From the NCBI GenBank assembly GCA_023249055.1, contig JAHFDH010000006.1, positions 1-32,211 on the forward strand: a DNA stretch of 32,211 nucleotides, in the 5' to 3' direction. The notes under the pieces are model-generated. The model had not been told where the DNA came from. It saw only the letters and a list, made by a program, of their open reading frames with translations, and did no database searches. The translations under genes and the position numbers were made by a program. Below, one piece after another: positions 26,487-32,211 of the stretch; positions within the stretch are counted from its first letter, which is position 1, and the number at the start of each line of letters is the position of its first letter. The stretch is from Candidatus Methylomirabilota bacterium. GTDB taxonomy: Bacteria > Methylomirabilota > Methylomirabilia > Methylomirabilales > Methylomirabilaceae.

Positions 26487-27569
26487 TCATCTCAATTTCA
26501 ATGTCGTGAGCGAGAGCAGAGCCAGGATAAACGAGATGATCCAGAACCGGACAATGATCTTCGGCTCCGCCATCCCATTCAACTCGTAGTGGTGATGGAT
26601 CGGCGCCATCCGGAAGACCCGTCGGCCGGTCGTTCGGTAGGAGAAAACCTGCAGGATCACCGAGATCGCCTCCGCCACGAACACCCCTCCGACAATGAGT
26701 AAGAGCAGTTCGCTCTTGACCAGAACCGCAAGCGTCGCCACAGCGGCCCCAAGCGCCAACGAGCCGGTGTCGCCCATAAAGAGCTGCGCGGGGTAGGTGT
26801 TGTACCAGAGAAATCCCAGGCTCGCCCCGACGATGGCGCCGCCAAAGATCGTCAGCTCCGAACTCTCCCTTACAAAGACAACCTGCAGATAGTGAGCGAT
26901 GCTGGCGTGTCCCGCAATGTATGCCAGGACCGTGTACGCCGCAGCGGAGATCAGGACCGGGCCGATAGCCAATCCATCCAAGCCGTCGGTCAGGTTCACC
27001 GCGTTTGACGCGCCGACGATCACCAGCGCCACGAACAGGACATAGCCCCAGCCCAGATCGGGTATCCAGTGCTTGAAGAAAGGAATAGCCAGCTTCGTGG
27101 TGTACGCATCGATAGGGTTGATGTACAGGAAGAGCCCGATAAACACGCTGGGAATCACCTGCCACAACAGTTTGGTCCTGGCTGACAGCCCCTTGCTGTT
27201 CTTGGCCACGACCTTCCGGTAGTCGTCGACGAACCCCACTGCTCCCATCCAGACCGTGCTGAACAGCGCAAGCCAGACGAACCGGTTGGTCAGATTCGCC
27301 CAGAGCAACGTCCCGATGCACACAGAGGCCAGGATCAGGAGACCGCCCATCGTGGGCGTTCCGGCCTTCTGCAGATGACCCGCCGGCCCGTCGTCTCTGA
27401 TGCTCTGGCCGATCTGCAACGTCTGAAGTCGGCGGATCAATGCCGGCCCCATCAGCAGACTGATCAGCAGCGCGGTGAGGATGGCCCCGGCCGTGCGGAA
27501 GGTCACGTACCGGAAAACGTTCAAAATAGTGTAGCTCTCGTGCCATGGGAACAATAGATGATATAGCAT
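26487..27569 (-). CDS. mraY: Phospho-N-acetylmuramoyl-pentapeptide-transferase
   Basis: [70 protein letters not shown]. Confidence 0.98.
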
Positions 27570-27609: not shown

Positions 27610-28920
27610 TCACTTGCCGGGCGTCACCAGATGCCGCCGATCGACCAACGCCTTACCCTCTGTCGATTTGAACTGGGTTGACCGCTTGTCCCGATGAGTC
27701 TCAAGCGCTAATTCTACCAGGCGAACGATGAGCTCCGCCGGCTTTACCCCGCTCCGCTCCCAGAGGGTGAAGGACAGCGACCCCGGCATAGTATTGATCT
27801 CGTTGACGTACGGCCTCATGGCGGCTGAGTCGACCAGGAAATCAACCCGCGAGATCCCGCGCGAATCGATCGATTTGAAGGCCGCGGCCGCCATCGACCG
27901 TATCTCATCAGAAAGCGCCTGAGGAATCCTGGCGGGGATAATGCTCGGCGCCAGGTCTGCGCGCCCCGGCTTCTTATCCTCGGGGTATTTGTCACGGTAG
28001 CCCACCACCTCACCCGAGCTGATGAGCTCCTCACATTCCGAGACGGTCAACGCGTGATTGCCGAGGACGCCGCATTGCACCTCGATCCGCTGCTGTACGG
28101 CTCGCTCAACCAACACGCGGCAACTGAAGCGCATCGCGCGCTTTGCCAGGCTCACCGCTTCACCCGCATCATGAGCGACACCGATACCGACGCTGGAACC
28201 CGCCACCGCCGGCTTGACCACCACCGGATAGCACAGTGTGCGCTCAATCGCCTGCACGACGGCCGCCTCATCTTCCAGCAGTTCGCGCCGGGTAATGCCA
28301 ATCCCCTCGACAACGGGCAGGCCTGCGCCTTGAAATACGAGCTTGGACATAATCTTGTCCATGCCTACCGCCGAGGCGGCGACTCCAGCCCCGACATAGG
28401 GCAGATTGGCCAGTTCACACAGACCCTGAATCGTTCCATCCTCGCCATGCGTCCCATGAATGACCGGAAAGGCCACGTCGATGGCAGGATGAACCTGTTT
28501 GCGAAGCCAGCCTTTCCGTTCCTGCTGCGGCATCAACCCGCCGACCGACGGATCCGGCGCCAGAAAGAGCGGCTCCGCCCCCATTGCGCTCACGCCCCGG
28601 TCCAGGTTCTCAAGCTGCGGCGCGTATCGCTCGCGATTCAACCGCAGCTTTTCGGCGTCGAGCTTCGCTCGCTCAGCCGGTTCCGCTATGATGTCGCGTT
28701 CCGCCAGCTTTCGTATCTCGGCATCGACCGTCAACAATTCCCGAACCGCCTCGCCGGTAAGCCACGTACCCTCCGCCGTCAGAAAGATCGGCAGCGTCTC
28801 GAACCGGTCCTGTAACGACAGCAAGACCTCATAGACCTTGCTGGCGGTCAGGATCGAAATTTCACGCTCCACCGAGCGGCTTCCGAAGATCAGCCCTATG
28901 CGTGTCAGACTGCTGTTCAT
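27610..28920 (-). CDS. D-alanine--D-alanine ligase-like ATP-grasp ligase (long, atypical)
   Basis: RIGLIFGSRSVEREISILTASKV, VAFPVIHGTHGEDGTIQGLCELANLPYVGAGVAASAVGMDKIMSK, VVKPAVAGSSVGIGVAHD, RVDFLVD, YVNEINTMPGSLSFTLWERSGV; 436 aa. Confidence 0.9.
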   Translation of the reverse strand: MNSSLTRIGLIFGSRSVEREISILTASKVYEVLLSLQDRFETLPIFLTAEGTWLTGEAVRELLTVDAEIRKLAERDIIAEPAERAKLDAEKLRLNRERYAPQLENLDRGVSAMGAEPLFLAPDPSVGGLMPQQERKGWLRKQVHPAIDVAFPVIHGTHGEDGTIQGLCELANLPYVGAGVAASAVGMDKIMSKLVFQGAGLPVVEGIGITRRELLEDEAAVVQAIERTLCYPVVVKPAVAGSSVGIGVAHDAGEAVSLAKRAMRFSCRVLVERAVQQRIEVQCGVLGNHALTVSECEELISSGEVVGYRDKYPEDKKPGRADLAPSIIPARIPQALSDEIRSMAAAAFKSIDSRGISRVDFLVDSAAMRPYVNEINTMPGSLSFTLWERSGVKPAELIVRLVELALETHRDKRSTQFKSTEGKALVDRRHLVTPGK

Positions 28921-30638
28921 GCAAATTCCAAGTAGCTGTCCGGCAGCCGATTCTCATACAGCAGCACGTCGCCTTCGCAGACGATCGCATTGAGACAGTC
29001 GGCGACGTCATCGGCATGCCTGGCGGTCAGGACTCGACTTCCGGCAAAACCGGCCTCGCGAAGCCCTTCCCGCAGCGGTTGTGTCTGCTGCGGCCCGACC
29101 AATACCACATAATCGCATACTGCGGCCGCCGCCCGGCCCAACCGCCGGTTCTCCTCCGCCTCGATCTGGCCCAGTTCTACCAGTCCCGGCGTGATAAGGA
29201 TCTTCGAACCCCCCTCAAACTGGCTGAGAACCTCCAGGGCCATCTGCGCCCCGCGCGGGTTGGCGTTGGCGACATCGATCAGCTTGATAACCCCGCCTTC
29301 TTCGCGAATCTCCAGGCGTTTTGGGGCCGGCGCGAGCGTCCTCACGCTATCGGCAATCTCCTCCAGAGGCACGCCACACTCCAACGCGGCAGCCGTTGCC
29401 CCAAGGATATTGCCGATATTCCAACCGCCCAGCAACCTGGTCTCGAACATGGCGGCGCCATACTCGGTCTCCACGCGAAAGGCCGAACCCTTACTGGAGA
29501 GCTTGACATCTTTCCCGCGAACGCTCAGCGCTCTCTCATCCTCGCCGATCCCATATAAGCGCACGCGCCGACCTTCTCGTCCGGCGCGTTCGGCCAGCCG
29601 CAGACAGTTCGGATCGTCGGCGTTCACGATCGCCAAACCATCCGGCGGAAGCGACGCAATCAACTCATACTTTGCTTCGGCGATCCGCTCCGGCGTGCCG
29701 AACCGCTCGAGGTGCTGGACACCGACCGCCGTGAGGATGCCGAACCGGGGGCGCAGGATCTCACACACCTCCCTGATCTCGCCGGGGCCGTATGCCGCTA
29801 CCTCGACAACGAAAAAGCGATGATCATCCCGCAAGGCCTCACGGACGATCCGCACAATGCCCATCGTGGTGTTGACCCCATCAGGCGTCTTGAAGACCGA
29901 ATAGCGCCTCTGAAGCAACGCGGCAGTAATAAACTTGGTCGTAGTTTTTCCGTAGCTCCCCGTAATCCCGACCACCTCTCCGGGATACCGGCGCATGCGC
30001 GTCGCCGCCTGCGCGTAGAAGCGTCGATTGACCGTCCGCTCCCACGGCGCGAGACTCAGATTTGCAACGAGGATGGTGCCCGCTGCCGCTTCGGACATGA
30101 CGCACAGGCCGGCGGCCAGGCCGATGCCGACCAGCAGGACGCGAGGAGCCGCCGTCAGCTGAGACAGCACAGCCGCAGTCAGCCATGCGGCGGCCAGCAT
30201 AGCCGCCACTGCCAGGACGCACGTGACCGCCGCCAGGCGCACCGTACGGGGCGTCCATTGCAGCCGCTGGCTGACCTGGAGCGAGGCGTACCGGGCGCTC
30301 AACCATCGCCCGGCGGCCAGCCACGCGATGTACAAGATACCTGTTCCGGCGTACCCGAAGCCGGGGATGGAAGAGAGCGGCGACCACGCAAGGACGATTC
30401 CGGCCCCAAGGACCGCTACCTGGGCGAGGGCTCCTCGGCCGTCCAGGATGATGCGCCAGTGTCTGGCGACCCAGCTCCGCAGGCGCGCACTGCTGTACCG
30501 CTCCAACTGGGTGAGGTAGATCAGATCCAGATGACGCGCCACCACAACCGCCGCATACGGCAGCAGACCGGTGACGACCCGGCCTGCGAATGAAGGTCCG
30601 AGCACCGTATCCGCCCGTATCACCGGCTGTCCTGCCAC
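28917..30638 (-). CDS. Membrane-anchored MurF-like Mur ligase
   Basis: Hydrophobic multi-TM N-terminal ~200 aa, then GEVVGITGSYGKTTTKFITAALLQ, VEVAAYGPGEIREVCEILRPRFGILTAVGVQHLERFG, AEAKYELIASLPPDGLAIVNADDP, DVANANPRGAQMALEVL. Confidence 0.88.
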   Translation of the reverse strand: MAGQPVIRADTVLGPSFAGRVVTGLLPYAAVVVARHLDLIYLTQLERYSSARLRSWVARHWRIILDGRGALAQVAVLGAGIVLAWSPLSSIPGFGYAGTGILYIAWLAAGRWLSARYASLQVSQRLQWTPRTVRLAAVTCVLAVAAMLAAAWLTAAVLSQLTAAPRVLLVGIGLAAGLCVMSEAAAGTILVANLSLAPWERTVNRRFYAQAATRMRRYPGEVVGITGSYGKTTTKFITAALLQRRYSVFKTPDGVNTTMGIVRIVREALRDDHRFFVVEVAAYGPGEIREVCEILRPRFGILTAVGVQHLERFGTPERIAEAKYELIASLPPDGLAIVNADDPNCLRLAERAGREGRRVRLYGIGEDERALSVRGKDVKLSSKGSAFRVETEYGAAMFETRLLGGWNIGNILGATAAALECGVPLEEIADSVRTLAPAPKRLEIREEGGVIKLIDVANANPRGAQMALEVLSQFEGGSKILITPGLVELGQIEAEENRRLGRAAAAVCDYVVLVGPQQTQPLREGLREAGFAGSRVLTARHADDVADCLNAIVCEGDVLLYENRLPDSYLEFA

Positions 30639-31387
30639 AAGAACCCCCTCACTACCCGGCTAAAACGGTCCGGACTGTCAATAAACGGGAAATGGCCGGC
30701 TCCCTCAAACACCTCCAACTGCGAGCCCTGTATGCCGCGCGCCATGATCTGCATCGAAGACAAAGGCACCTCCTGATCACGATCGCCCCAGATGATCAGA
30801 GTGGGCGCACGAATAGCCGCTAAGATCCCTCGAAGATCTTCGGCTACGACCTTCACCAGCGTGGCGCGCATCGATCCCGCATTCCGATAGTCTCGAGATC
30901 CTATGCGCCCATAGAGTTCGGCAATAATCCGCTCGCCCGCCCTGCCCCACCCAGGCAGCGAAAAGAGCCGCTTTGCCAGCTTCACGGCGCCGACCTTGAC
31001 ACGATGCAGAAGTCCTCGTCTCGGGCGGATCCCCGCGCTAGCTACCAGCACGAGGCGTCGAACCCTGTCGGACCTTTGAGCGGCCAGGACAAGCGCGATT
31101 CGGCCTCCGAATGAATGACCGATCAGATCGGCTGCCGGGATACCGACGCGATCCATAAATGCCTCGACATAGGACGCATACTCCCATGTCCCCCACGTCG
31201 TGGCAGCAGATGGGGTCCAGCCAAAACCGGGCAGGTCAAGGGCGTACACTCGGAATCGATCCTCTAAGGCCTTGGCAACCGGGCTTAGAGATTCGGCTGA
31301 ACTGCCCCATCCATGCAGGAGAACCACCGGCCTTCCTTCTCCCCACACCATAAAATGGGTGTCCAGGTCACCGACACGAATCAGCAC
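30620..31387 (-). CDS. Alpha/beta hydrolase
   Basis: VVLLHGWGSSAES, LIGHSFGGRIAL (nucleophile elbow), IIWGDRDQEVPL (acid), GAGHFPFIDSP (His). Confidence 0.93.
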   Translation of the reverse strand: MLIRVGDLDTHFMVWGEGRPVVLLHGWGSSAESLSPVAKALEDRFRVYALDLPGFGWTPSAATTWGTWEYASYVEAFMDRVGIPAADLIGHSFGGRIALVLAAQRSDRVRRLVLVASAGIRPRRGLLHRVKVGAVKLAKRLFSLPGWGRAGERIIAELYGRIGSRDYRNAGSMRATLVKVVAEDLRGILAAIRAPTLIIWGDRDQEVPLSSMQIMARGIQGSQLEVFEGAGHFPFIDSPDRFSRVVRGFLWQDSR

Positions 31388-31402: not shown

Positions 31403-31487
31403 TAGGGTGTAGGGGGTAGGGTATCGGGGCTAAAACTGCCCCTCTCTTCTCCACCCTACACCCTATACCCTGCACCCTACACCCTGT
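31403..31487. repeat. Telomere-like heptamer repeat block in inverted arrangement (TAGGGTG-type arm / ACCCTAC-type arm)
   Basis: Left arm TAGGGTG TAGGGGG TAGGGTA TCGGGGC (31403-31430); right arm ACCCTAC ACCCTAT ACCCTGC ACCCTAC ACCCTGT (31453-31487); 12-bp perfect inverted repeat TAGGGTGTAGGG / CCCTACACCCTA (31403-31414 / 31454-31465). Confidence 0.93.
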
Positions 31488-32211
31488 CTTCGCAGCAGAA
31501 CCCCAACTCGTGAAGCGCCTCTCGAGCCACCAGCCGGTCGTCAAAAGCAATCGTACGATCGCGGAGAATCTGGTAGGTCTCGTGCCCCTTCCCCGCGATC
31601 ACCACCATATCGCCTCTCCCCGCCAACGAAAGGGCCTCTCGAATTGCCATCCCTCGATCTAAAATTGTAACATAGCCCTTTCCCTGACCCCACACCTTTT
31701 TCGCCCCGGTTTCGACCTCCTCGATGATCTGATGAGGGTCTTCGCCGCGAGGATTGTCGGAGGTGATGATCGTAAAGTCGGCCAACTGCAAAGCCGCTTC
31801 TCCCATAAGCGGGCGCTTCCCCCGATCGCGCTCTCCCCCGCATCCGAACAGAACGATCAGACGTCCCGGACAGCACTGCCGCGCCATGCGGAGGACACGC
31901 CGCAGCGCGTCAGGGGTATGCGCATAATCGACCATCACACTGAACGCCTGCCCCTCATTCACCCGCTCGCACCGACCAGGAACGTGGCGGAGCGCGGCGA
32001 TCCCGTCTGCCACCACAGACAGATCCGCGCCCAGATGCAAGCCGGTGGCCGCCGCCGCCAGGATGTTGGACAGGTTGTAGCGCCCCAACAGCGGGGAGTG
32101 AATCGCCGTTGTCCCCCACGGGGTCTGCAGCCGGCACCGGATTCCATCCGGCCCCATATCGACATCGGTGACCGACAGATCCGCCGGCCCTTCTGCGCTG
32201 TAGGTGTAGCG
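31477..32211 (-). CDS. murE: UDP-N-acetylmuramoyl-L-alanyl-D-glutamate--2,6-diaminopimelate ligase, C-terminal part (runs off the right edge)
   Basis: LLGRYNLSNILAAAATG, VMVDYAHTPDALRRVLRM, LFGCGGERDRGKRPLMGEAA, TSDNPRGEDPHQIIEEV, VVIAGKGHETYQI; DNPR motif indicates a meso-DAP enzyme. Confidence 0.97.
   Translation of the reverse strand, partial: RYTYSAEGPADLSVTDVDMGPDGIRCRLQTPWGTTAIHSPLLGRYNLSNILAAAATGLHLGADLSVVADGIAALRHVPGRCERVNEGQAFSVMVDYAHTPDALRRVLRMARQCCPGRLIVLFGCGGERDRGKRPLMGEAALQLADFTIITSDNPRGEDPHQIIEEVETGAKKVWGQGKGYVTILDRGMAIREALSLAGRGDMVVIAGKGHETYQILRDRTIAFDDRLVAREALHELGFCCEDRV

Follow-up and report, generated by a model that had tools for sequence, protein, structure and literature searches.

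In the textbook view, MurF is a soluble enzyme that completes UDP-MurNAc-pentapeptide ahead of the membrane steps of peptidoglycan synthesis, and its standing as a drug target builds on this view. A membrane-associated Mur-type ligase, CapB/PgsB, also exists. MurT, of the MurT/GatD lipid II amidation complex, is a Mur ligase without a UDP-binding domain that acts on lipid II, and such a domain has been argued to clash with the membrane (PMC6113224). At another step, an alternative lipid II synthase is reported to be able to substitute for MurG (PMC8092295).

Here, we describe a MurF-type ligase with a membrane domain (TM-MurF), encoded in 32,211 nucleotides of DNA from a Candidatus Methylomirabilota bacterium (GenBank assembly GCA_023249055.1, contig JAHFDH010000006.1). 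This whole stretch is called the window below. Full-text searches of an open-licence library turned up no account of a MurF with such a domain. The gene belongs to a dcw cluster that reads, on the minus strand, murE-hydrolase-TM-MurF-ddl-mraY-murD-ftsW-murG-murC-murB-ftsQ-ftsA-ftsZ. Its immediate surroundings are as follows:

31477..32211, minus strand: murE, C-terminal part, cut by the contig end (TIGR01085, 270.8 bits); upstream boundary of the murF slot.
30620..31387, minus strand: alpha/beta hydrolase, partner of TM-MurF, 255 aa (PF00561, E 6e-37), with a 19 bp overlap with TM-MurF.
28917..30638, minus strand: TM-MurF, 573 aa, GTG start; membrane N-domain plus MurF-type ligase.
27610..28920, minus strand: Ddl (D-Ala-D-Ala ligase), partner of TM-MurF, 436 aa (PF07478, PF01820; NCBIfam NF002528 over cut-off), with a 4 bp overlap with TM-MurF.
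26487..27569, minus strand: mraY, an ORF with 56-92% identity to the MraY that relatives encode in this position; it bounds the murF slot downstream.

The two overlaps indicate that hydrolase, TM-MurF, and ddl are probably translated together. A Mur ligase piece fitting the missing part of the window's murE lies at the end of G000:C107. The window is from a genome of the Candidatus Methylomirabilis type, a group of methane-oxidizing bacteria; the named matches to the TM-MurF protein are in MAGs of Candidatus Methylomirabilis and of Methylomirabilota (NC10). The sacculus of Methylomirabilis can be digested with lysozyme (PMC8671808), so MurF activity is expected there.

TM-MurF resembles canonical MurF (TIGR01143) in its middle and C-terminal domains, its P-loop, and most catalytic motifs. 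Unlike canonical MurF, it has a membrane domain of about 217 residues in place of the UDP-binding N-domain and carries the signatures NTTMG and, at its C-terminal end, ENxLPD, where MurF has KGSRG. The protein is organized as follows:

29988..30638, minus strand: N-terminal membrane domain, residues 1-217; all helical, AlphaFold pLDDT 89.
30471..30509, minus strand: motif 1, residues 44-56 (QLERYSSARLRSW), at the predicted cytoplasmic end of TM1 and the next amphipathic helix; Q44 and Y48 invariant, W56 over 90% conserved (31 sequences).
30237..30263, minus strand: motif 2, residues 126-134 (LQWTPRTVR), a basic loop, predicted cytoplasmic; L126, T129, R131, and R134 invariant (31 sequences).
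30039..30047, minus strand: motif 3, residues 198-200 (PWE), on the long helix that runs into the ligase domain; P198 and E200 invariant (31 sequences).
29385..29966, minus strand: Mur ligase middle (ATP-binding) domain, residues 225-418 (PF08245, E 2.2e-39).
28959..29318, minus strand: Mur ligase C-terminal domain, residues 441-560 (PF02875, E 1.5e-9).

The best NCBIfam match of TM-MurF is murF (TIGR01143), and no CapB/PgsB model is among the matches listed at E <= 1. The murF model also matches all 31 TM-MurF members with the best E-value. However, the alignment starts only at residue 210 of the window's protein, and across TM-MurF proteins the profile is aligned only from model position 57-73. 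The resulting score, 218 bits, is below the curated cut-off of 288.6, and the other scored TM-MurF genomes give 201-257 bits. A whole-model Foldseek search of the PDB returned MurF for all ten best matches, via the ligase part. Because the core still matches MurF models, automatic annotation hides TM-MurF. The preliminary description had read this protein as a MurF-like ligase whose UDP-binding N-domain is apparently replaced by a membrane domain. The motifs that it listed (GSYGKTTTK, AAYGPGEI, HLERFG, ANANP) and its hydrophobic segments are all present in the 573-aa translation. Moreover, the profile alignment and the all-helical AlphaFold model, which shows no genuine alpha/beta MurF N-domain, confirm that the UDP-binding N-domain, a defining feature of MurF, is absent and that a membrane domain stands in its place.

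The modeled N-domain consists of 5-6 long helices (17-45, 67-85, 95-116, 130-161, 166-183, and 185-217), with short helices at 50-64. Confidence is pLDDT 89.0 and pTM 0.83 for this domain alone, and pLDDT 85.6 for the full-length model. Ahead of the P-loop, 12 of 12 homologues have 3-6 transmembrane segments in a hydropathy scan, against 0-1 weak segments in three canonical MurFs. In the same twelve homologues, the loops after TM1 and before TM4 are basic, and the other loops are nearly uncharged. By the positive-inside rule, this pattern suggests a topology with the N-terminus outside and the ligase domain in the cytoplasm. Across 31 sequences drawn from several phyla, eight residues (Q44, Y48, L126, T129, R131, R134, P198, and E200) never vary, and the polar ones lie at the predicted cytoplasmic ends of helices. 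In most homologues, motif 2 takes the form KKPLVxTxRxxRL. Searches with the domain found no Pfam family, no match in a profile search of PDB sequences, and no fold match in the PDB by Foldseek (best E 2.2). Chance hydrophobicity of the N-terminal part was considered and rejected, as conservation of the domain extends over 21 Methylomirabilota genomes and into other phyla.

TM-MurF is similar to MurT in that it lacks the UDP-binding N-domain. However, MurT pairs with GatD, carries a Cys4 zinc ribbon in its middle domain, and is short at the N-terminus. The 573-aa translation of TM-MurF contains no CxxC pair, and GatD is not among its neighbors (hydrolase, ddl, mraY, and murE). Unlike CapB/PgsB, TM-MurF scores as MurF and excludes MurF.

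Among 95 Methylomirabilota genomes, the membrane domain is found in all 15 of family f1, to which the window's genus belongs, in 6 of 7 of family f5, and in none of the 73 others. The gene order in f1 and f5 is murE-hydrolase-TM-MurF-ddl-mraY; in families f2, f3, f4, and f7 it is murE-murF-mraY, with a canonical MurF. Within this phylum, TM-MurF lies in the slot between murE and mraY that canonical murF has in the other families. A tree of seven neighboring genes places f1, f5, and f2 together, with the canonical f2 among them at weak support, and is compatible with either one or two gains of the set in f1 and f5. One f3 genome has a second, divergent dcw cluster (L047, G026:C19:32000-47331), which encodes a further canonical MurF and has a Ddl gene placed between murB and ftsQ.

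Proteins that share this membrane domain are encoded in Thermosipho, in roughly 15% of the Clostridia sampled, in a single Hydrogenedentota genome, and in a further bacterial class, that of genome G042. The hydrolase and TM-MurF adjoin, with ddl alongside, at every Thermosipho, Clostridia, and Methylomirabilota locus with enough flank and at the Hydrogenedentota locus. In the class of G042 (loci L115-L120), only three of six loci have ddl next to TM-MurF and none shows a hydrolase, so the hydrolase is a usual rather than universal partner. In neither Thermosipho nor Clostridia is the set part of the dcw cluster or close to mraY. Thermosipho-group genomes have murE followed by mraY with no murF in between. 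Spread by plasmids was also considered and rejected: the ligase core is matched by 76 plasmid records, but no record reaches 80% coverage of the protein, and in the 12 listed the match begins no earlier than residue 184.

A ligase-core tree (a quick reconstruction scored by SH-aLRT, in which one TM-MurF branch is long) groups 23 TM-MurF with 9 canonical MurF sequences (SH-aLRT 98), each as its own clade (96) and both apart from MurE and MurD. TM-MurF is thus a sister clade of canonical MurF. The Methylomirabilota TM-MurF groups with that of other phyla and is not nested in Methylomirabilota MurF, which indicates that the lineage exchanged whole genes, not a domain; a domain swap inside the Methylomirabilota murF was rejected on this ground. 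The exchange of an N-domain within one murF, as first envisaged, therefore gives way to an old, separate MurF clade that displaced ordinary murF in several lineages.

The two enzymes never co-occur in the genomes scored. With canonical MurF defined as a score over the curated TIGR01143 cut-off of 288.6 bits, none of 43 TM-MurF genomes (14 Methylomirabilota, 5 of the Thermosipho group, 19 Clostridia, and 5 more) has one, and 23 of 26 genomes without TM-MurF do (345-450 bits). Fisher's test on 38 TM-MurF genomes against these 26 gives p about 2e-14, a figure that ignores kinship and carries little weight, since the switch was made independently only a few times (at least in Methylomirabilota, Thermosipho, Clostridia, and Hydrogenedentota). 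Family profiles give the same picture. Nine of 45 Thermotogales have TM-MurF and no canonical MurF; the other 36 have no TM-MurF, and nearly all of them show a MurF of canonical length. One of 60 genomes of the Hydrogenedentota phylum has TM-MurF, without canonical MurF, and most others have canonical MurF. TM-MurF is found in 8 of 9 genomes in the class of G042. Two Clostridia genomes (G144 and G154) match neither enzyme at E <= 1e-30, which may reflect incompleteness or a third solution. A second, canonical murF, which the preliminary description had named as a possible objection, is found neither in the window's genome (83.5% complete) nor in a close relative with TM-MurF, G005, whose assembly is one contig of 2,752,854 bases with a listed completeness of 100%. 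TM-MurF is almost certainly the cell's only D-Ala-D-Ala-adding ligase. Judging from mutual exclusion and gene slot, it very probably has the MurF role, the addition of D-Ala-D-Ala onto a MurNAc-tripeptide.

Both partners keep invariant residues. In the Ddl, K311-Y312 is invariant, a Lys-Tyr pair that we take to mark D-Ala-D-Ala ligases rather than D-Ala-D-Lac ligases. The operon Ddl is the only strong Ddl in Methylomirabilis, the complete genome included, and sister families have a different Ddl elsewhere. One f2 genome has two adjacent Ddl-type C-domains (G015:C58:7340-9150); f2 is the canonical-MurF family nearest the TM-MurF families in the neighboring-gene tree. In the hydrolase, the Ser-Asp-His triad (S92, D204, and H232) and S164-x-D166 are invariant in 28 partners, and the enzyme is presumably active, given its triad. 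The invariant S-x-D precedes the triad Asp. The cap segment of the hydrolase (30620-31387) is rich in Lys/Arg and aromatic residues, with YYxKVYTYKxxKK in most homologues. With these features, the hydrolase might bind a membrane or a phosphorylated substrate.

These features can be combined into a candidate mechanism. In the TM-MurF clade, a membrane domain of about five helices replaces the UDP-binding N-domain and would hold the ligase domain on the cytoplasmic face. In the window's lineage, the set took the place of the ordinary murF between murE and mraY. The MurE product, UDP-MurNAc-tripeptide, would pass straight to MraY. TM-MurF would then use ATP to add D-Ala-D-Ala, supplied by a partner Ddl made with it, to the tripeptide once this is lipid-linked, in lipid I or lipid II, at the surface of the membrane. 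Conserved membrane-domain residues at the cytoplasmic interface may take over the recognition done by the UDP-binding domain in ordinary MurF.

A lipid-linked substrate is suggested by the loss of the UDP-binding domain in every member, as in MurT, which likewise lacks it and acts on lipid II (PMC6113224). It is also suggested by the conserved membrane-domain residues, which are predicted to be placed where the lipid pyrophosphate would lie. However, the catalytic core keeps most MurF motifs, which counts against this model, and MraY would have to accept UDP-MurNAc-tripeptide. We know of no sequence feature that alone reads out a lipid substrate. Action on the lipid-linked tripeptide after MraY is the favored reading of the substrate, at about even odds. 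The explanation as a whole, a sole MurF that is sited at the membrane and most likely works via the lipid-linked tripeptide, is slightly favored. That the order of peptidoglycan synthesis is changed in TM-MurF bacteria of at least four phyla, with MraY moving the tripeptide and D-Ala-D-Ala from a dedicated Ddl being added on the lipid-linked intermediate at the membrane, is put forward tentatively, as a proposal that falls a little short of an even chance.

A serious contender, although probably not the correct reading, is a membrane-tethered MurF, perhaps beside MraY, that converts UDP-MurNAc-tripeptide to the pentapeptide and hands it straight to MraY, leaving the soluble order unchanged. 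An intact MurF-type core, canonical MurF as closest relative, and the closeness of the gene to mraY in Methylomirabilota would all fit such an enzyme, which accounts equally well for the mutual exclusion with MurF. However, continued binding of UDP is hard to reconcile with the disappearance of the UDP-binding domain from every member, and the Thermosipho and Clostridia sets are far from mraY, outside the dcw cluster. It is improbable that TM-MurF makes a precursor other than the ordinary D-Ala-D-Ala pentapeptide. Such a product would explain why TM-MurF and a distinct Ddl travel with an esterase-like hydrolase of invariant triad, and why the C-terminal end differs from that of MurF (ENxLPD vs KGSRG). 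Nonetheless, the Ddl keeps K311-Y312 and scores as a D-alanine--D-alanine ligase over the NF002528 cut-off, and the G042 class has no hydrolase adjoining TM-MurF. A non-peptidoglycan ligase (capsule or poly-gamma-glutamate, CapB/PgsB-like) or a MurT-type amidation enzyme would be in keeping with a membrane-bound protein without the N-domain, but is disfavored as highly improbable, since TM-MurF occupies the murF slot, excludes MurF across phyla, scores 29 bits on MurT vs 218 on murF, has no CxxC pairs or adjoining GatD gene, and is placed beside MurF in the tree.

By all indirect evidence, TM-MurF is like MurF in function, yet it lacks the UDP-binding domain, a defining feature of MurF. Like the reported MurG substitute (PMC8092295), it is an alternative enzyme for a step thought universal. 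Unlike that case, it concerns a different step and enzyme, and TM-MurF is the sole MurF-type enzyme of its genomes, with no spare. The findings suggest that the last step of wall-peptide building takes place at the membrane and not by an enzyme free in the cell, a location that we infer. A widespread membrane clade without the UDP-binding domain that stands in for MurF means that bacteria have more than one way of carrying out the MurF step. If the substrate is indeed lipid-linked, the textbook order of the pathway would have an exception in several phyla, Clostridia included, and bacteria that rely on TM-MurF would escape inhibitors directed against the MurF N-domain.
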